From positions 1 through 41,511 of the forward strand of contig CAIXPF010000058.1 of assembly GCA_903921205.1 (NCBI GenBank): a stretch of DNA of 41,511 nt, written 5' to 3'. Source of the DNA: an uncultured Acidimicrobiia bacterium (lineage in GTDB: Bacteria; Actinomycetota; Acidimicrobiia; Acidimicrobiales; CAIXPF01). Each line of letters starts with the position of its first letter. Positions within the stretch are counted from its first letter, which is position 1. Below, one piece after another: positions 3,615 to 14,525 of this stretch. The notes beneath the pieces are model-generated. The model was not told the origin of the DNA. It ran no database searches and saw nothing but the letters and a program-made list of their open reading frames with translations. The translations under genes were made by a program, and so were the position numbers.

Positions 3615-6600
3615 ATGAACCTGCGCAACCCACCGGGGACCGGGCACGAGAACACGATGCGTCCCGGCGCACCGTCCGGCGAGGAACCGACGGGGCGGCC
3701 GGCACCGGCGTCGGTCCGCCTCGAGGACCGCTACACGGTTGACGACCGGCCCGTCTACCTCACCGGCAGCCAGGCGCTGGTCCGCCTCGTCCTCGAGCAG
3801 GCCCGCCGCGACCGCAGCGCCGGGCAGCGGATCGGCAACTTCGTCACCGGGTACCCCGGGTCCCCGCTCGGCGGCTACGACACCGCGTTGAGCGGCGCCC
3901 GCAGCCACCTCGACCGTTACGGCATCGTGCATCGACCGGCCATGAACGAGGAACTCGCCGCCACCTCGCTGTGGGGGACGCAGATGATCGAGTCCTCCGA
4001 GCAACGGACCGTCGACGGGGTCAACGGGTTCTGGTACGGCAAGGGCCCGGGCATGGACCGCGCCGGCGATGCCATCCACCTCGGCGCGTTCGCCGGCACC
4101 TCGACCCTCGGTGCGGTCACGCTGCTGTCCGGCGAGGACCACGAGGCCAAGAGCTCCTCCGCACCGTTCCAGCAAGAATGGGCGTTCGTCCACCACGGCA
4201 TCCCGCTGCTGTACCCGTCATCGGTCGCCGAGTTCGTCACGTTGGGCCTGCACGCGGTGGCCCTGTCGCGCTTCAGCGGCCTGTGGACCGGCCTGAAGCT
4301 GGTCGGACCGCTCTGCGACGGCGGCGAGACCTTCACCGTCGCCGACGTACTGCCCGGTATCTCGCTGCCGGAGGTCACCATCGCCGGCCGGCCCTTCGAG
4401 AAGAAGACCGACTTCCGCTTCTTCCCGGGCCTGAACATCGAGACCGAACGGCAGATCTACGAGGAACGCCACCCCGCCGCAGTCGCCTACCTCGAGGCCA
4501 ACGGACTCAACCGGATCACCGTGTCGGGCGCGCAGGACCGCATCGGCATCGCCGCCGCCGGCAAGAACTACGCCGATCTGGCCCAGGCGCTGGAGAACCT
4601 CGGCCTGCCCGACGACGAGCTGCGCCGGCTGGGGATCCGTCTGTTCAAGGTCGGCGCGCTCTACCCCACCACCCCGGCTGCATTCGCCGCCTTCACCGAG
4701 GGACTGGCGCGGATCGTGGTGGTGGAGGACAAGCGCGGCTTCCTCGAGGGAGTCTGCCGGGAGGCCCTCTCCCGACAGGGCCGGGCCATCCCCGTCGAGG
4801 GCAAGCGGACCCTGGCGGACCGCCCGCTGTTCCCGGTACAGGGTGCCATGGACGCCGACATCGTCAGCACCGTGCTCGGCCCGTGGTTGGCCGAACAGCT
4901 CGCAGCCGGCGATCCGGCACGGGACCGTATCGACGCCGAACTGTCACGCCTGCGCGCTGCGAGCCGCACGAAGATCGAACTGACCCCGAAGCGGACCCCC
5001 AACTTCTGCTCCGGCTGTCCGCACAACACGTCGACCCAGGCGCTGGACGGCCAGACCGTCTGGGGTTCGCCGGGCTGCCACATCATCGCGTCGGTCATCG
5101 AGAACGACCCGCGACACGTCAGCGCCGCCACCCAGTACGGCGGTGAGGGTCTGCCCTGGATCGGTCTGTCACCGTTCACCGGGGAGCGACACCGCACCCA
5201 GAACGTCGGCGACGGATCGTTGTTCCACTCCAGCTACCTCAACATCCGTTACGCCGTGGACGCCGGCGTCGACATCACCTACAAGATCCTCTACAACGGC
5301 GCGATCGCCAACACCGGAGCCCAGGTCCCCGTCGGCCAGCGCAGCGTGCGCGACCTCATGGGCCTGCTCGAGCTCGACGGCGTGGCCCATGTCGCCCTCA
5401 TCACCAAGTCCCCCGAGCACCACGACCGTCGCAGCCTCGGCCCACGGATGTCGGTGCACCCCGTGCAGGACTACGAACGGGTACTGCGCGACCTCGAGTC
5501 GACGCCCGGGGTGACGGTGTTCATCTACGACGAGATGTGCGCCAACGAACGGCGCCGGCAGCGCAAGCGGGGCACGTTCCCCGCAGCCCGGCGGCTGGTG
5601 GTCATCAACCCCGCGGTCTGCGACAACTGCGGCGACTGCGGGAAGGTCTCCAACTGCATGTCGCTGCAGAAGATCGACACCCCGCTCGGACCGAAGACCC
5701 ACGTCCACCAGTCCTCGTGCAACCAGGACGAGTCGTGCCTACGGGGCAACTGTCCCTCGTTCCTCACCGTCGAGGTCGACGACAGCACCGCCCTGCGGCG
5801 GCCCGACCTGCCCGCCATCGCCGCCGACAGCCTGCCCGGCCCGGTCGCCCCGCCCGATCTGTCCACGCCGTTCCGCATCTACGCCCCCGGCGTCGGTGGT
5901 ACCGGGGTGATCACCGCCAACGCCTTGTTGGCGTGGGCGGCACTCATCGACGGCCACCGGGTCAAGAGCTTCGATCTGACCGGCACGGCGCAGAAGTGGG
6001 GGCAGGTCCTCTCCAGCCTCGTCATCCACCGGGCCGGTACCGAGGCGGCTTCGAGCAAGGTGGGCATCGGCGCGGCCGACCTGTACCTGGCGCTCGATCC
6101 GATGGCGGCGTCGGACGAGACGAACCTGCAGCGTTGCAGCCGCACGCGCACCCGGGCGGTGATCAACACCGGCCTGCTGCCCAACGGCGAGATGACCCGC
6201 GACATCACCTACCAGGCACCGCTCGGACAGATGATCGGCAACGTCGAACGGGTCACCGACCCCCGGGCCAGGGTCTGCCTCGATGCCGGTGCACTGGCCG
6301 AGGCGTTCTTCGGCGACCATCTCGCCACCAACATGATCTGCATCGGCGCCGCCTACCAGGCCGGTCACCTGCCACTGTCGGCGGAGGCCGTCGAAGCTGC
6401 GATCGAGCTCAACGCCGTCGCCGTGGAGCAGAACCGCCAGGCCTTCCGCCTGGGCCGGCTGTACGTCGCCGACCCGGCACGCCTTGCGGCGCTGGCGGCA
6501 GCATCGTCGGGTGGGCCCGGCCGGCCGGCGCCGGTCCCGCCCGCCGAGGCGACCCTCGAGGCGCTCGTCGCCTACCGCCACGAGCAGCTCGTCGCCTACC

Positions 6601-8718: not shown

Positions 8719-8733
8719 ACCCCGGCCCGGGGT
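8719..8733. terminator. GC hairpin between convergent dpgC-like and ferric-reductase-like genes
   Basis: ACCCCG and CGGGGT form a 6-bp stem around a 3-nt loop, directly after the DpgC-like stop and touching the stop of the minus-strand gene. There is no T-run. Confidence 0.4.
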
Positions 8734-9329
8734 CAGAGGCGTGCCGTCGGACCGGGTGCCGTCGGACCGGGTGCCGTCGGACCGGGGGTCACCCGGCTGC
8801 GGGCGGGCCGGCGGTTGGTGAGCCGGTACAGCGTGGCCCACGCCACCGCCACGATCGCGGCCACCGCGGTGACGCGATAGATCAGGGTGCTCCGGTCGCT
8901 GCCGGCGAAGGCGGCGTGCATGCTGGTGAGCCAGAACACGGCGTAACTGCTCAGGTGCACGACCCGCCAGGCGGACCGCGGCAGCCGGCGCATGGCCAGC
9001 GAGGTGACCTGCACCGCCGCCAGCAGCCACGCCGCCACCACGCCGTAGGCGACCGCGCCCGGCTTCCAGTCCGAGGCCAGGGGCACTGCGAGATCGACGA
9101 CGTCGAACTCGACATAGCTGTCGGCGACCAACGCCGTCAGGTGCAACGCCACGAACATGACCGTCAGCCCCCCGAGCCAGGTGTGCAGATCACGCAGCCA
9201 CGCCGGTCGACGACGGCTCGGGAACGCCCGGGTCGACAGCACCACCCCCCAGATCACCGACGCGGTCAGCATCAACCAGGCCACCATCCCTGACGAACGG
9301 GCCAGGTACCACCACAGCTGCGGGTTCAT
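8733..9329 (-). CDS. Ferric-reductase-like transmembrane protein
   Basis: A 198-residue membrane protein with about six helices and the heme-ligand layout of the ferric-reductase-like (YedZ/NOX-type) domain. An N-terminal WWYLARSSG leads helix 1. Histidines occur in LHTWLGG, ALHLTAL, VVHLSSY and SMHAAF, placed to hold two b hemes. No flavin or NAD domain is attached, so it would pass electrons across the membrane to or from partners. The C-terminus carries GPTAP three times from a 15-bp DNA repeat. ATG 9329 overlaps the ApbE stop (TGATG); a GTG at 9332 would give GTGA coupling. It is the last gene of a four-gene operon. Extracytoplasmic flavin-linked electron transfer is the likely role. Confidence 0.85.
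   Translation of the reverse strand: MNPQLWWYLARSSGMVAWLMLTASVIWGVVLSTRAFPSRRRPAWLRDLHTWLGGLTVMFVALHLTALVADSYVEFDVVDLAVPLASDWKPGAVAYGVVAAWLLAAVQVTSLAMRRLPRSAWRVVHLSSYAVFWLTSMHAAFAGSDRSTLIYRVTAVAAIVAVAWATLYRLTNRRPARSRVTPGPTAPGPTAPGPTARL
8741..8785. repeat. 15-bp in-frame tandem repeat x3 (C-terminus of ferric-reductase-like gene)
   Basis: Three perfect 15-bp units encode a Gly/Pro/Thr/Ala pentapeptide repeat at the extreme C-terminus of the minus-strand protein. Confidence 0.85.
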
Positions 9330-10396
9330 CACGACCCGTAACGAGCGCTAGGGGGACGACAGGGGCCGGCCGCAGACGGGTCCAGGCCCAGCGCCGCGGC
9401 GAGATCCTCGGTGGCGAGCGGCGCGCCCCCGCCGGCAGGAAAGGCCAGGCCGGTGAGACCGTGGCCCCGCAGGTGGTCGAGCGCGCCCACCCGCCCCAGC
9501 GACAGGGCTGCGGTGGCGTGGGCCTCGGCCTGCCAACCAGTCGGTGCGATCACCGTCACCGCCGCCAGATCGGTGTCCGACGGGAGGCCCGTGACGGGGT
9601 CGATCTGGTGGTGACGGGCCGCTCCCGCCTGCACCCACCGACGGGACCGGGTACTGGAGGTGGCCACCCCACCACCGTCGACCAGCAACGCGATCGCGGA
9701 ACCGTCGGAACCGTTCGGGCGGCCGGGTAGGCCCGGCAGGCCCGGCGGGCCCGGGGCGAGAAACGGGTCTTCCACCACGATCGTCCAACCCCCGGCCGAG
9801 GGCGCTGCACCGCCCACCGACAGGTCACCACCGATACCCACCAGCACCCCGCCACACCCGGCGTCGAGCAGCCGGCGCACCACCAGGTCCGCGGCGAGGC
9901 CCTTGCCGATTCCGCCGGCATCGAGGGCCACACCCTGCGGCAGCCGGGCGGACCCGACCGCCTCGTCGAGCTGCAGCGCCGCAGGCCACCCACCATCGCC
10001 GATGGCGACCGGGGCGAGCGGCGCACCGGGCCGGGCCGACCGGGCCGATGGAGGCAGCGCGGTGCGACGGTTCGGATCGTGCAGGCTGGCGTCGTACCCG
10101 ATCGCCACCAGATCGGGCAGGACCGCAGGCTCGAAGCGACCCGCCGTCATCCTCCAGGCCTCGGCCATGGTCGCCAACAACACCATCGTGCAGCGGTCGA
10201 CGGCCACCGGCCGGCCCTCGGCACGGTTGAGCCGGCTCAGGTCGCTGTCGGCCAGGAAGCGGCTCCAGTGACGCTCGAGCCGGTCGAGTTCGGCGACCGC
10301 ATCGTCGAGCGTTCGCTGTGCCGGGCCGGGCGGGTCGACCACGATCAGGTGCAGCTCGCTGCCCATCACCCGGCCCCGATGTTCCACGACCGCCAT
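9329..10396 (-). CDS. apbE: FAD:protein FMN transferase (ApbE family)
   Basis: A 355-residue member of the ApbE family, which attaches FMN covalently from FAD to Thr or Ser of target proteins in a Mg-dependent reaction. MGSELHL near residue 11 matches the family's MGT start motif. ALDAGGIGKGLAAD (about 158-171) is the FAD/Mg-binding core, and GIGGDLSVGG follows. Near the C-terminus are DPVTGLPSD and AEAHATAALSLG. A Pro/Gly-rich insert (PGPPGLPGLPGRP) lies after the middle. No signal peptide or lipobox is visible, unlike many proteobacterial ApbE proteins. ATG 10396 is used here; a TTG at 10414 overlaps the upstream stop. No classical FMN_bind target is encoded nearby, so the substrate protein is unknown and may be one of the two upstream gene products. 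Confidence 0.88.
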   Translation of the reverse strand: MAVVEHRGRVMGSELHLIVVDPPGPAQRTLDDAVAELDRLERHWSRFLADSDLSRLNRAEGRPVAVDRCTMVLLATMAEAWRMTAGRFEPAVLPDLVAIGYDASLHDPNRRTALPPSARSARPGAPLAPVAIGDGGWPAALQLDEAVGSARLPQGVALDAGGIGKGLAADLVVRRLLDAGCGGVLVGIGGDLSVGGAAPSAGGWTIVVEDPFLAPGPPGLPGLPGRPNGSDGSAIALLVDGGGVATSSTRSRRWVQAGAARHHQIDPVTGLPSDTDLAAVTVIAPTGWQAEAHATAALSLGRVGALDHLRGHGLTGLAFPAGGGAPLATEDLAAALGLDPSAAGPCRPPSARYGS

Positions 10397-10410
10397 CGTC
10401 GGTACCGGGC

Positions 10411-10896
10411 TCAACGACTGCCGTTGGTCCGCGCCCGCGGCGCAGCGGTTGCGGGAGCGGTGCCGGGCGCCGCTGCCGGCCCCGGCGCGGCGGCCACCTG
10501 GGACGCTGCCGGTTCGGCCGCGACGCGGACCACGGGCTGCGCGGTCAGCGCAATCGGCGGGGCCACCGTCGTGGCCGGGGACGCCGTCGCCATCGAGGTT
10601 GCGACAGCCCCGCCGACCGAACCGGCAGCCGCCGGGGCCGAGCCGACCACGACCGGACCCGCTGCAACGGCCGGACCCGTCGGAGCCACCTCGACCGTCT
10701 CGGTGTCCTGGCGGTTGAGCAAGCCCATGACCGCCACCGAACCGAGCATGGCGGCCATCCCGAACCCGGTCGCCACGATGCGGCCACCCTCTGCGGGGTG
10801 GGGGCGCCCGCGACGCACCGGCCGGGATCCCGGCGGACGGGGTCGTGCCGACCGCACCGACGACGGGCCGCCGCTGCCGATGGAGACGTCAGTCAT
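10411..10896 (-). CDS. Single-pass membrane protein with Ala/Pro/Val-rich exported tail
   Basis: A 161-residue protein of unknown family. A basic, Pro/Arg-rich N-terminus of about 45 residues is followed by one membrane helix (IVATGFGMAAMLGSVAVMG) and about 95 residues of Ala/Pro/Val/Thr-rich low-complexity sequence, which would lie outside the membrane (positive-inside rule). The frame is open to 11016, but ATG 10896 has AAGGGGG upstream at 8 nt and overlaps the previous gene by only 8 bp. It is cotranscribed with the beta-domain gene upstream and apbE downstream. No FMN-binding domain is visible. It could be a stalk or linker between the membrane reductase and an outer redox partner; that role is inference from context. 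Confidence 0.65.
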   Translation of the reverse strand: MTDVSIGSGGPSSVRSARPRPPGSRPVRRGRPHPAEGGRIVATGFGMAAMLGSVAVMGLLNRQDTETVEVAPTGPAVAAGPVVVGSAPAAAGSVGGAVATSMATASPATTVAPPIALTAQPVVRVAAEPAASQVAAAPGPAAAPGTAPATAAPRARTNGSR

Positions 10897-11617
10897 CGTC
10901 ATCGCCCCCTTCGAACCGGCCGCTCCCGCTGCTCCCACTCCCCCGGCTCCCACTCCCATTCCTGTTGCTGACGCTGACGCTGCTGCGGTCGTCACCGCCC
11001 TCGTCGTCGTCGTCATCGGAGGGGAACGATGTCGAGGCCGCAGCAGCCGCGGAGGAAACAGCGGACACGGAGGAAACGGGGACCGGTCCGACTGCGGCGC
11101 GACCCGATGACCCGGTCGCCGAGGACCCGAGCTCGCTCACCGTGGCGCTCACCGTGCCGTCGGGCGTCGCCGAGGCGACGAACTCGAGGGTCCGCACGCC
11201 GTCGGTGAAGGTGATCACCAGCACCGTCGCACTCGACTGGCCGGCGGTCCAACGCCACCCGGAGGCCGGTGTCACCGACTCGAGCCGCAGTCCGGCCGTC
11301 GAGCCGCTCACCGTGACGGTGCCTGCGGCGTCCACGGCGAACTGGCGGGCCCCACCACCGGGAGGGACCGCCGCAGACGTGCCCGCCGGGGACGCACCGG
11401 TAGCCGTCGCCGCCCCGCCCGCTCCGGTGAGTTCGCCTGCTGCGGAGAGCTTGCCGGTCGGGGTGTCCGCAGCGCTGCCGAGGATCCCGACGTTGGCGCC
11501 GACCGCCGCCGCTCCGGCGAGCACCACGACGACCACACTGGCCGCGGTGAGCCACCTCGTCCGTCGGAGCCGACCCGAGGACGGTGCCCCACCTGCGCTG
11601 CCCGCTCCACCTGTCAT
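10889..11617 (-). CDS. Membrane-anchored exported beta-domain protein, paralogue of the lipoprotein at 13854
   Basis: A 242-residue protein with a short cytosolic N-terminus, one membrane helix (about 22-46), a Gly/Ala/Ser linker and a compact predicted beta domain (about 89-162). It ends in a Ser/Gly/Asp-rich acidic tail with DDDDD and a final DDDD. The beta domain aligns without gaps to the lipoprotein encoded at 13854-14525: by hand about 34 of 75 residues are identical, including QF, TVSGS, GW.WT and a final SA..E. Residues 153-159 read DGTVSAT, close to the ApbE flavinylation consensus; the paralogue reads SGSISAR there. The start is ATG 11617, with TACCGT 7 nt upstream and no ribosome site. 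First gene of the apbE operon, divergent from the response regulator. Family not recognised. Confidence 0.72.
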   Translation of the reverse strand: MTGGAGSAGGAPSSGRLRRTRWLTAASVVVVVLAGAAAVGANVGILGSAADTPTGKLSAAGELTGAGGAATATGASPAGTSAAVPPGGGARQFAVDAAGTVTVSGSTAGLRLESVTPASGWRWTAGQSSATVLVITFTDGVRTLEFVASATPDGTVSATVSELGSSATGSSGRAAVGPVPVSSVSAVSSAAAAASTSFPSDDDDDEGGDDRSSVSVSNRNGSGSRGSGSSGSGRFEGGDDDD

Positions 11618-11624
11618 GGATCCA

Positions 11625-11630
11625 ACGGTA
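11625..11630 (-). promoter_or_regulatory. -10 element TACCGT, leaderless promoter of the apbE operon
   Basis: TACCGT on the minus strand ends 7 nt before ATG 11617, so the mRNA would begin at the start codon. The same hexamer precedes the paralogous gene at 14525 at almost the same distance. Confidence 0.6.
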
Positions 11631-11662
11631 GGGGCACGCTCACCAGGGTGACGTGTGCAACA

Positions 11663-11681
11663 GGCAAGGAATTGGCAAAGG
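11663..11681. promoter_or_regulatory. Candidate response-regulator direct-repeat box
   Basis: GGCAA occurs at 11663 and 11674 within AGGCAAGGAATTGGCAAAGG-like sequence, an 11-bp spaced direct repeat, the spacing favoured by OmpR-family dimers. It lies between the divergent response-regulator and apbE-operon starts, about 46-64 bp upstream of the expected apbE-operon start site. Suggestive only. Confidence 0.3.
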
Positions 11682-11730
11682 CTCACCGGCGATGCCGGAC
11701 CGGGCCGATCGGTCGTGGGAGGCTGGTCCG

Positions 11731-12405
11731 GTGCGACTGCTGCTCGTCGAGGACGATCCGTCCATCTCCGTGCCGCTGCGGGCCGGCCTCGAGCGCGAAG
11801 GCTTCACCGTCGAGGTGGTGGCGACCGGCGCCGCGGCCCTCGCCGCTGCACCGGCCGACCTCGTCCTGCTCGACCTGGGGTTGCCCGACATCGAGGGCCC
11901 GGTGGTGTGCCGTCGCCTCCGCGAGGCGGGACCGACCCCGATCATCGTGGTCACCGCACGGGGCGACGAGTTCGACCGGGTGATGCTGCTCGAACTCGGG
12001 GCGGACGACTACGTGGTCAAGCCGTTCGGCTTCCGCGAGCTCGTGGCGCGCATCCGGGCGGTGCTGCGCCGCAGCATCACGGCCGAGCGCGGCGGTTCCA
12101 CCGACATCATCGAGATCGGCGGGCTGCACATCGACCGGCGGGTCCATCGGGTGCACTTCGACGGCGCCGCGGTGACGTTGACCCCCAAGGAGTACGACCT
12201 GCTGCTCTACCTCGCTGCCGACCCCGGCACCGTCCGCAGCCGGGACCAGCTCATGCGTGAGGTGTGGGACGAGCACTGGTGGGGTTCGACCAAGACCCTC
12301 GACGTGCACGTCGCCTCGTTGCGCAAGAAGCTGCGCCCGGAGCTCATCGAGACCGTGCGCTCGGTGGGGTATCGCCTCGCCCCCGAAGCGACCCAGCCAC
12401 GGTGA
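11731..12405 (+). CDS. OmpR-family response regulator
   Basis: A 224-residue two-domain regulator. The receiver domain has the acidic pair Asp8/Asp9, the phosphoacceptor Asp48 (LLDLGLPD), Thr75 and Lys97 (VVKPFG). The C-terminal winged-helix domain carries LTPKEYDLLLYLA, the transactivation loop and the ending SVGYRLAPEA. The start is GTG 11731, with GGGAGG 8 nt upstream; earlier ATG codons in frame lack a ribosome site. The stop overlaps the kinase start (GTGA). It is divergent from the apbE operon. The two paralogous exported-protein genes on either side of the pair are its most obvious targets, inferred from position. Confidence 0.93.
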   Translation: MRLLLVEDDPSISVPLRAGLEREGFTVEVVATGAAALAAAPADLVLLDLGLPDIEGPVVCRRLREAGPTPIIVVTARGDEFDRVMLLELGADDYVVKPFGFRELVARIRAVLRRSITAERGGSTDIIEIGGLHIDRRVHRVHFDGAAVTLTPKEYDLLLYLAADPGTVRSRDQLMREVWDEHWWGSTKTLDVHVASLRKKLRPELIETVRSVGYRLAPEATQPR

Positions 12406-13775
12406 CCCGACGACTGCTGCTGAGCTATCTCACCGTCACCGCAGCGGTCCTGCTGCTGCTGGAGATACCGCTCGGTCTGTTCTACGCCGACCGCGAGGTC
12501 GAGCGCCGCACCGCCGAACTGGACCGCGACGCCGGCGTGATCGCCACCATCTACGAGGACGCCCTCGAACGTGGGGCCGCGCTGGTCGCCGAGCCGGCCG
12601 AACGCTACGAGCAGCGGACCGGGGTCCGCGTCGTCGTGGTCGACCGGGATGGCATCTCCCGGGTCGACACCGCCCAGCCCACCCCGCGCGACTTCTCCAC
12701 CCGGCCGGAGATCGCCGTCGCACTCGGCGGTGACCGCACGGCGGGGACCCGGCCCTCGGAGACGTTGGGAACCGACCTGCTGTACGTGGCCGTGCCGTCG
12801 GCCTCCGGAGGCGTGGTCCACGGCGCGGTGCGCCTCACCCTCGACACCGCCGGGACCGATGCCCAGATCCGCCGGTTCCAGGCCGGTCTGGTGGCCGTGG
12901 CAGTGGTGGTGCTGGCCACCATGGCGCTGATCGGCTGGGTACTGGCCCGTAGCGTGACCCGGCCGGTACGACAGTTGCAGCGGGCGGCCGAGCGCTTTGC
13001 CTCGGGCGATCTGCGCCGGGACGATGACGTGACGGTGGGCGGGCCGCCCGAGCTGCAGGCACTCGCCGCCACCCTGACCACGATGGCCACCCGCCTGGCA
13101 CTGGTCCTCGAGGAGCAACGGTCCTTCGTCGCCGACGCCTCACACCAGCTACGCACCCCGCTGACCGCGCTCCGGCTACGCCTGGAGAACCTGCAGTCCA
13201 CCGTGCCCGAGGCCGGTGCGGCCGAGCTCGACGCCGCCATCGACGAGACCGACCGGTTGGGCCGGCTGGTCGGCGATCTCCTGCAGTTGGCCCGAACAGA
13301 CCAGCTCCCCGAACCGGTCGTGGCCGACCTGGCGGCGATCGCCGGCGAGCGGGCGGACACGTGGAGCGCCGTGGCCGACGCCGCAGCGGTGACCCTCGGG
13401 TGGCGGCCACCCGCGCCGGGCGAGCGGACCGTGGTGCAGGCGGTCGCCGGGGCCGTCGAGCAGATCCTCGACAACGTGATCGACAACGCAGTCGCCGCAT
13501 CGGGCCACGGCGGCACCGTCACGGTCACCGTGCGTGTGGTGCCCGGTCCGCGACCGGTCGAACTGGCCGTCATCGATCACGGTCCCGGCCTGTCCGACGA
13601 CGACAAGCTGCGCGCCCTACGGCGTTTCTGGCGCAACGACGCCGGTCGCGACGGTACCGGCCTGGGTCTGCCCATCGCCGTCGCCCTGGCCGAGGCATCG
13701 GGCGCCACCCTGCGGCTCGCGGACACCCCCGGCGGGGGCCTGACCGTCGTCGTGGCCTTCGCCGCGGCGCGCTGA
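12402..13775 (+). CDS. Membrane sensor histidine kinase
   Basis: A 457-residue kinase that pairs with the preceding regulator. Helix 1 (about 5-28) leads into an extracytoplasmic region of about 135 residues with no known domain. Helix 2 follows (about 165-187), then a HAMP segment beginning SVTRPVRQL. The dimerisation box SFVADASHQLRTPLTAL holds phosphoacceptor His248. The catalytic domain has the N box (ILDNVIDNAVAAS), G1 (VIDHGPGLSDDD), an F box (FWRNDAG) and G2 (GTGLGLPIA). All catalytic motifs are intact. It starts with GTG in a GTGA overlap. The gene converges with the lipoprotein gene, so the system is enclosed by paralogues that might report to, or be controlled by, the sensor. Confidence 0.92.
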   Translation: MTRRLLLSYLTVTAAVLLLLEIPLGLFYADREVERRTAELDRDAGVIATIYEDALERGAALVAEPAERYEQRTGVRVVVVDRDGISRVDTAQPTPRDFSTRPEIAVALGGDRTAGTRPSETLGTDLLYVAVPSASGGVVHGAVRLTLDTAGTDAQIRRFQAGLVAVAVVVLATMALIGWVLARSVTRPVRQLQRAAERFASGDLRRDDDVTVGGPPELQALAATLTTMATRLALVLEEQRSFVADASHQLRTPLTALRLRLENLQSTVPEAGAAELDAAIDETDRLGRLVGDLLQLARTDQLPEPVVADLAAIAGERADTWSAVADAAAVTLGWRPPAPGERTVVQAVAGAVEQILDNVIDNAVAASGHGGTVTVTVRVVPGPRPVELAVIDHGPGLSDDDKLRALRRFWRNDAGRDGTGLGLPIAVALAEASGATLRLADTPGGGLTVVVAFAAAR

Positions 13776-13801
13776 CCGGACCCGCCCGAACAAGGGCTCA
13801 C

Positions 13802-13846
13802 GGCCCGATCGGACCCGGCCCGATCGGCAGCGGCCCGGTCAGCCGG
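13802..13846. repeat. 15-bp degenerate tandem repeat x3 between convergent genes
   Basis: GGCCCGATCGG at 13802 and 13817 and a variant at 13832 give a 15-bp period within the 78-bp gap between the kinase stop and the lipoprotein stop. Confidence 0.6.
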
Positions 13847-13853
13847 TGGTCCC

Positions 13854-14525
13854 CTACTCGGCCGTGGTCGTGGTCTCGCCGCCGCCCGGCTCCTCCTCCG
13901 ACGGGTCGACCGTGGTGGTGGTCGAACCCGGGGCGGTGACGGCGGTGGTGGAGGTGCTCCCCGACGGCACGCGCACCGTGGTGGTGGTCGCCAGGACCGT
14001 GGTCGTGGTCGGCGCCGGGACCGTGGTCGAGGTGGTGGTCGTCGTGATCGACTCCACCAGACGGGCACTGATCGAACCGCTCACCGTGGTCGAGAAGGTC
14101 ATCTCGACGTAGCGGGGCCCGTTGACGAAGCGCACCACCATCGTCCCCGGTGCGTTCTGGGTGCGGGTCCAGGTCCAGCCGTCGGCCGGCTCCACCGCGT
14201 GCAGTTCGACCCCCCACGCCGAGCCGCTGACGGTGATGGTGCCGGCGATCCCGGCACGGAACTGCATGGCTCCGCCGGGCAACGAGGTCGCGGTGTTCTC
14301 CTCACCGGACACGGTGGAGGTCGTCACGCCCGGCGGGACGCTCACCTTCACCACCTGTGCGGCCGGCAGGGTCACCCCGCTCTCGGAGGAACCGCCCCCG
14401 GAGCCGGCACCGATCGAGCTGCCGAGGTCGCAACCGGCCAGTGCTGCGGAGGCGCACAACGTCACCAAGGCCGCGGCGAACAGCTGCCGGCGGCCGCGGC
14501 GCACACGACAGGAGGCGGCGGACAT
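13854..14525 (-). CDS. Exported lipoprotein with beta domain, paralogue of the protein at 10889
   Basis: A 223-residue lipoprotein. A basic N-terminus and hydrophobic helix end in the lipobox LAGC, with Cys32 as the lipidated residue. A Gly/Ser linker leads to a beta domain (about 82-159) with QF, TITVSGS, DGWTWT, VVRF and SISARLVE. This is clearly homologous to the membrane-anchored protein on the other side of the two-component system. The last 60 residues are a Thr-rich low-complexity tail with TTTT runs and a short acidic segment. At the site matching DGTVSAT in the paralogue this protein has SGSISAR, so any flavinylated Thr would be absent. ATG 14525 is preceded by TACCGT at 6 nt. Function unknown; a sensor-accessory or redox-partner role would fit. 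Confidence 0.8.
   Translation of the reverse strand: MSAASCRVRRGRRQLFAAALVTLCASAALAGCDLGSSIGAGSGGGSSESGVTLPAAQVVKVSVPPGVTTSTVSGEENTATSLPGGAMQFRAGIAGTITVSGSAWGVELHAVEPADGWTWTRTQNAPGTMVVRFVNGPRYVEMTFSTTVSGSISARLVESITTTTTSTTVPAPTTTTVLATTTTVRVPSGSTSTTAVTAPGSTTTTVDPSEEEPGGGETTTTAE

Follow-up and report, generated by a model that had tools for sequence, protein, structure and literature searches.

The locus studied here lies between positions 8733 and 14525 of a stretch of 41,511 nucleotides (the window), which is contig C58 of a 4.36-Mb genome from an uncultured Acidimicrobiia bacterium whose completeness was put at 100% by the estimating tool. Seven genes occupy it (Table 1). On the minus strand, the gene for an anchored beta-domain protein (P0001) is followed by those for a low-complexity (LC) membrane protein, a transferase of the ApbE family, which attaches flavin mononucleotide (FMN) from flavin adenine dinucleotide (FAD) to proteins, and a ferric-reductase-like cytochrome (FerR). 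A response regulator and a sensor histidine kinase are encoded divergently, and beyond them stands the gene for a lipoprotein (P0002) with the same beta domain. We examine this locus as a candidate electron-transfer cassette in which the LC protein may be the substrate of ApbE.

A preliminary description, made from the sequence of the window, had placed P0001 at the head of an operon with the LC, ApbE and FerR genes, and both the gene order and the Pfam assignments agree with it; the coordinates likewise confirm that P0001 and P0002 sit on either side of the OmpR-type regulator/kinase pair. The positions and gene types given there hold, with two starts corrected. The LC gene stands as such while its start at 11016 is replaced by ATG 10896, which overlaps the stop of P0001 as ATGA, and the ApbE start moves to ATG 10396, 15 nt past the LC stop. 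The start of the response regulator was chosen by comparison with relatives, and that of the kinase by a codon-model call together with its overlap with the regulator gene. On the minus strand at 10383-10428, the bases for NGSR and the stop (AACGGCAGTCGTTGA) nearly recur at the ApbE start (GATGGCGGTCGTGGAA), as if this start had moved through a small duplication.

Table 1. Genes and sequence features of the locus, with window coordinates.
Feature	Position	Strand	Basis and remarks
FerR, MsrQ/STEAP/NOX-like b-type cytochrome, 198 aa	8733-9329	minus	Pfam PF01794
ApbE-family FAD:protein FMN transferase, without signal peptide	9329-10396	minus	PF02424
LC protein, 161 aa, candidate ApbE substrate	10411-10896	minus	Position, anchor profile, ATGA overlap
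C-terminal TNGSR of LC	10414-10428	minus	Proposed acceptor Ser codon 10417-10419; C-terminal motif statistics
P0001, anchored beta-domain protein with acidic tail (EGGDDDD)	10889-11617	minus	Homologues at the same place in 45/67 loci
Beta domain of P0001	11123-11350	minus	Profile match 1.3e-35; AlphaFold2 model
Direct repeat TTGCC-N6-TTGCC, candidate response-regulator site	11663-11678	minus	Sequence match, promoter comparison
OmpR/PhoB-type response regulator	11731-12405	plus	PF00072 + PF00486; alternative start 11692
Sensor histidine kinase with extracytoplasmic region, HAMP, HisKA and HATPase	12402-13775	plus	Pfam
P0002, beta-domain lipoprotein	13854-14525	minus	BLASTP to P0001; not fixed in the cassette
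Beta domain of P0002	14040-14270	minus	Profile match 7e-39

Conservation of the cassette and distribution of FMN_bind

Scanning the named genomes with an alignment of FerR yielded 67 loci. Upstream of FerR, ApbE is encoded in all 67, an LC open reading frame (ORF) in 62, a beta protein in 45 and a divergent regulator in 43; for the 46 loci whose upstream sequence exceeds 4.2 kb, the respective counts are 46, 44, 38 and 36. FerR itself matches PF01794 (Ferric_reduct) at 3.1e-8, above the gathering cut-off, and four of its histidines (H49, H63, H125 and H138) are invariant in 11 cassettes. It had been described as a six-helix b-heme-type protein; the ferric-reductase type stands, but the AlphaFold2 model (pLDDT 84) shows five long helices. 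The window ApbE matches PF02424 at 4e-46, and its closest solved structure is 4xdt (1.5e-16).

In MsrQ-like flavinylation systems, which are broadly conserved in Actinobacteria, a PF01794 gene and apbE are typically accompanied by an FMN-binding gene (Meheust et al. 2021, PMC8238504). Within the 67 ferric-reductase loci, phmmer found FMN_bind in none, and Pfam found none among the seven window proteins. FMN_bind had initially been reported as absent, which is correct for the window and not for the whole genome, where one FMN_bind protein lies on contig C104 (L005). This protein adjoins its own ApbE, a ferric-reductase-like gene and a two-component system, forming a separate canonical cassette, and it is therefore not obviously the target of the window ApbE, although it may be a cross-target. 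In the near-identical genome G001, the FMN_bind region of the corresponding locus (L088, G001:C28:40179-40400) contains an in-frame TAG, where the C104 copy of G000 is open.

The presence of FMN_bind, ApbE and DUF2271 across whole genomes was judged by family search. FMN_bind is absent from 23 of 41 cassette genomes and from nine more in the first set; two pairs (G058/G819 and G426/G821) have identical coordinates and look like the same genome, which leaves about 30 distinct ones. DUF2271 is likewise missing from 26 of these; it scores above the cut-off in three and below it in one. Since both families are absent, the ApbEs of these cassettes are orphans, DUF3570 not having been searched. Many of the genomes without FMN_bind have a single ApbE, which is, where checked, the cassette copy, as in IMCC26207 (G824). 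The isolate Desertimonas flava SYSU D60003 (G810) has no FMN_bind and two ApbEs, each in a cassette of its own (L119 and L176). Because most of the genomes are metagenome-assembled, the absence of FMN_bind is weaker evidence in the majority of them. Our literature search found no paper that joins ApbE and Acidimicrobiia. In genomes of the same genus (L096, L097 and L098), another ApbE is accompanied by a two-component system and by PepSY-like and DUF2271-like genes, an arrangement that corresponds to a known flavinylation type.

The preliminary description had also proposed that the redox operon has its own two-component system, and this is supported by the divergent regulator in 43 of the 67 loci and by a conserved direct repeat in the common promoter. 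By Pfam, the regulator contains Response_reg and Trans_reg_C and the kinase HAMP, HisKA and HATPase; with the direct-repeat site, the pair has the features of an OmpR/PhoB-type two-component system. The pattern T[TA][GA]CC-N6-T[TA][GA]CC occurs in 19 of the 43 divergent promoters, and in 23 with a relaxed form, while 200 shuffles gave a mean of 0.1 and a maximum of 1. The repeats stand mostly 50-57 nt from the conserved regulator start and are always oriented toward the operon; their 11-bp period is typical of OmpR/PhoB sites. In the window, the repeat is the sole exact match in 41.5 kb (0.21 expected) and stands before a TACCGT element and the start of P0001. No direct repeat precedes P0002, even with one mismatch allowed, and control of this gene by the same regulator is therefore unsupported by sequence.

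The LC protein and its C-terminal motif

The LC gene lies directly between the beta gene and the ApbE gene, and its product consists of an Arg-rich head, a single transmembrane anchor and a Pro/Ala/Thr-rich tail. In most LC proteins, Arg and Lys lie N-terminal to the anchor and not C-terminal to it, so that by the positive-inside rule the tail is predicted to be outside. A profile of the anchor ([KR]RxHPAxxAR followed by the transmembrane segment), run against 17,089 ORFs, retrieved the LC ORFs first and the FMN_bind proteins of canonical cassettes next: four of six were recovered, with E values of 6e-5, 0.003, 0.014 and 0.63, and about three other non-LC ORFs matched at E < 1. Pfam finds no FMN_bind domain in LC; the membrane anchor is all that it has in common with the FMN_bind proteins.

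At the other end of the protein, the pattern [ST]x[GAP]Sx(0-2)-COOH is present in 56 of 60 LC proteins, compared with 4.0% when these tails are cut at random, and in 39 of 43 after removal of similar sequences; L135 and L170, whose ORFs are wrong or broken, were left out of these counts, and the failures are L122, L152, L174 and L176. As the pattern had been drawn from these 60 loci, we then tested it on others. In one group of hold-outs, L182-L189, L193-L200 and L202 match and L204 and L205 miss (17/19, with a null of 7%); L190, L191 and L207 match as well, as do L100, L101 and the second LC of L068, and L102 misses, giving 23 of 26 in total. The pattern is nearly confined to LC, since the C-termini of the other cassette proteins carry it in 1 of 68 ApbEs, 1 of 67 FerRs, 1 of 51 beta proteins, 0 of 43 regulators and 0 of 42 kinases. 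In L197, L198 and L199, which belong to one genus, the LC protein carries a conserved segment, RTVEVRIG..SDAEARAALRSWLEGQPDLDRDGSLTVVDS, ahead of the Ser tail, in contrast with the low-complexity tails elsewhere.

ApbE is known to recognise DxxSGA[ST] and to place the flavin on the final residue of this motif; exchange of the Gly for Ala or of the Ala for Val leaves about half of the flavinylation (PMC12052999). The distant relative L202 ends in SSGAS, which is the canonical motif, and several other LC proteins end in TGGS or SGGS. The strict form [ST]GA[ST] is not present in the window LC and occurs among the LC proteins only in L202; across the cassette proteins it gave just two chance matches, in linkers. 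Judged by its residues, the LC ending is a putative relaxed form of the [ST]GA[ST] recognised by ApbE.

A proposed electron route compared with known systems

We propose that the locus encodes a two-component-regulated transmembrane electron-transfer cassette in which ApbE attaches FMN to the C-terminal Ser tail of LC, a proposal that we consider marginally probable. Electrons would cross the membrane through FerR, whose family and four histidines suggest two hemes, and would then reach the FMN bound covalently to the LC tail. LC would thus be a membrane-anchored, mostly low-complexity tether, an apparent stand-in for the canonical FMN_bind protein, and once reduced it would act outside the membrane. 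The adjacent anchored protein might carry a metal on its Asp/Glu/His-rich tail, and this metal is a speculative candidate for the acceptor. Control of the operon is probably exerted by the response regulator through the direct repeat.

The preliminary description had read the locus as a variant flavin-based redox system. The conserved ApbE/ferric-reductase operon without FMN_bind, with a two-component system of its own, fits this reading, whereas the beta domain as flavin acceptor does not; the reassignment of the acceptor from the beta domain to LC is a prediction that we regard as evenly balanced. More tentatively, and with somewhat greater doubt than confidence, we suggest that LC may represent a new class of ApbE substrate without a flavin-binding domain, made of an anchor and a tether, with covalent FMN on the last 1-3 residues as a swinging flavin arm between the heme cytochrome and an extracellular acceptor.

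Among described arrangements, the MsrQ-like systems are alike in that ApbE adjoins a heme-bearing membrane protein of PF01794, chiefly in Actinobacteria, and in that electrons are predicted to cross the membrane to an extracytosolic flavin. The cassette differs in having, instead of FMN_bind, an anchored protein whose tail is short and Ser-terminated; it adds the acidic-tail protein and the divergent OmpR-type two-component system, and the window FerR has no fused NAD-binding domain. Because FMN_bind was searched for and not found, we file the cassette as a variant of these systems. The canonical cassette on C104 is similar in its divergent regulator and kinase, its exported anchored protein with a related membrane anchor, its ferric-reductase-like protein and its ApbE. 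There, however, an FMN_bind domain with SGATYTS forms the end of the anchored protein, the ApbE has Asp at the metal site, and no beta-domain gene is present.

ApbE sites are also known on C-terminal extensions of folded flavodoxin-like proteins, the FMN_red group (Huang et al. 2024, PMC10979944/PMC11334425). The proposed flavin on an unstructured C-terminal extension is common to both; in that group a folded flavodoxin-like domain carries the extension, whereas LC has no recognised folded flavin-binding domain. FerR, for its part, resembles the transmembrane domain of STEAP and NADPH oxidase proteins, with paired His heme ligands: its three best Foldseek matches are STEAP2 and SpNOX, with probability 1.00 but E values of 0.04-0.07, all above 0.03. 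Unlike these proteins, the window FerR has no cytosolic nucleotide-binding domain detectable by Pfam.

Alternative readings and significance

Several observations weigh against LC flavinylation. In 65 of 66 cassette ApbEs, the metal-site Asp of the AD-x-x-A-T motif is Glu, and in 17 the Thr of the same motif is Lys. We take this Asp to be a metal ligand, and it is retained in the four canonical ApbEs that we examined; the activity of the cassette enzymes may therefore be altered. The preliminary description had associated ApbE with extracytoplasmic electron transfer. An extracytoplasmic ApbE is unsupported, since no signal peptide is seen on the cassette ApbEs, only 1 of 67 of which has a hydrophobic N-terminal segment, whereas the LC tail is predicted outside; the same discrepancy exists in the canonical C104 cassette. 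About half of the cassette genomes hold an FMN_bind protein elsewhere. The LC pattern is looser than [ST]GA[ST] and was derived from the 60 loci before the hold-outs were tested; in some loci the tail overlaps the ApbE start or ribosome site, and the second Desertimonas LC (L176, VVTERSR), L102 and L204/L205 miss the pattern.

The remaining part of the locus, the beta-domain proteins, bears on two of the other readings. P0001 and P0002 share a domain with exactly 34 identities in 75 ungapped residues, as first described, and the whole proteins match far beyond chance (BLASTP E = 9e-18). AlphaFold2 predicts seven strands for the domain in P0001 (pLDDT 91.9). P0001, P0002 and LC match no Pfam or NCBIfam family, and over 62 members of the beta domain no Pfam family is consistently found. 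In comparisons with known folds, the domain gave profile matches in the PDB only to designed proteins and, weakly, to YcnI; the YcnI/DUF1775 link is weak (E 0.05-0.5), Foldseek with the model returned nothing at E <= 0.001, and the best VIA match, lmo2686 (4k15_C, Z 7.4), is within the stated background. Missing matches of this kind do not establish a new fold.

The beta-domain profile matches 50 of 395 genomes of the class. Of 51 beta proteins, 42 have at least 8 Asp, Glu or His residues among the last 20. The counterpart gene in at least seven cassettes (L120, L141, L142, L152, L164, L172 and the second G061 locus, L101) retains the membrane anchor and the D/E/H-rich tail and has no detectable beta domain. 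The lipoprotein P0002 is outside the cassette core: it is absent from the G061 cassette (L015) and present in G003 (L017) without a cassette. At L017, a short ORF (6031-6489) begins as an oxidoreductase-like gene and ends as an enoyl-CoA hydratase-like gene, the latter being the cassette flank in the window; it reflects either a deletion or a misassembly. Two-component systems with no ApbE stand between two exported beta-domain proteins, many of which have Asp/His-rich tails, at about a dozen loci (L061, L064, L065, L069, L072, L076-L080, L084 and L086), an association wider than the cassette.

One alternative is that a two-component system sensing the envelope or a metal forms the core of the locus, with the exported acidic-tail and beta proteins as sensor partners and the redox genes as one of its outputs. 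This would account for beta proteins that bracket unrelated two-component systems and for an acidic tail that survives the loss of the beta domain, and it is compatible with LC flavinylation. In every lineage seen, however, the beta/acidic-tail gene heads the LC-ApbE-FerR operon, and we consider this alternative rather unlikely.

The changes in ApbE could also mean that the cassette enzyme is an FAD hydrolase or FMN supplier, like Treponema Ftp, or that it modifies FerR or an unlinked protein; the consistent Asp-to-Glu and frequent Thr-to-Lys replacements, the missing signal peptide and the absence of the strict acceptor motif all point in this direction. Such an enzyme is nonetheless unlikely here, since the cassette ApbEs retain HHxIDP and GGIGKG, many of the genomes have no other known ApbE substrate family, and the conservation of the LC tail would need another cause. 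A separate observation concerns locus L099 (G002:C375, 2380-5193, minus strand), where a histidine kinase and an ApbE domain are fused in one ORF of 937 amino acids, which adjoins its response regulator. This fusion supports a link between kinase and ApbE, though its kinase is divergent.

The LC ending might instead be kept for translational coupling with apbE, or for recognition or modification by a different partner. In many loci, the bases that code for TSGSR or TNGSR also code for MAVVE, the start of ApbE. The motif nonetheless persists, with different codons, in L130, L131, L134, L120, L164 and L177, where apbE begins beyond the LC stop, and in the window it is free of this constraint because of the 15 nt between the two genes. 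We dropped the idea that T[NS]GSR is a mere by-product of the overlap, the motif being present without it, and coupling or another partner is in our view unlikely. The beta domain as a new flavin acceptor, the original proposal, is very improbable: the gene heads the operon in most loci and matches no known domain, but the domain is missing from the counterpart gene in the cassettes listed above, has neither a conserved [ST]GA[ST] nor an invariant Ser/Thr over its 62 members, and occurs mostly without ApbE, contrary to the expected co-occurrence (ApbE in 14 and two-component systems in 28 of 44 fetched contexts).

Flavinylation of the LC tail is the reading that we prefer. It names a candidate substrate family, down to the exact residue, for one group of orphan apbE genes; in the survey of Meheust et al., about 4% of the genomes have no known ApbE substrate even when DUF2271 and DUF3570 are added (PMC8238504). 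If the reading is true, LC substrates would explain why some apbE genes of Acidimicrobiia and other Actinomycetota are orphans, covalent flavin carriers would need just an anchor and a tagged tail, with no folded flavin-binding domain, and a Ser-terminated tail beside apbE would be a searchable signature. Flavin-based electron transfer in Actinobacteria that are widespread and mostly uncultured would also be linked to a two-component system and a defined promoter element.

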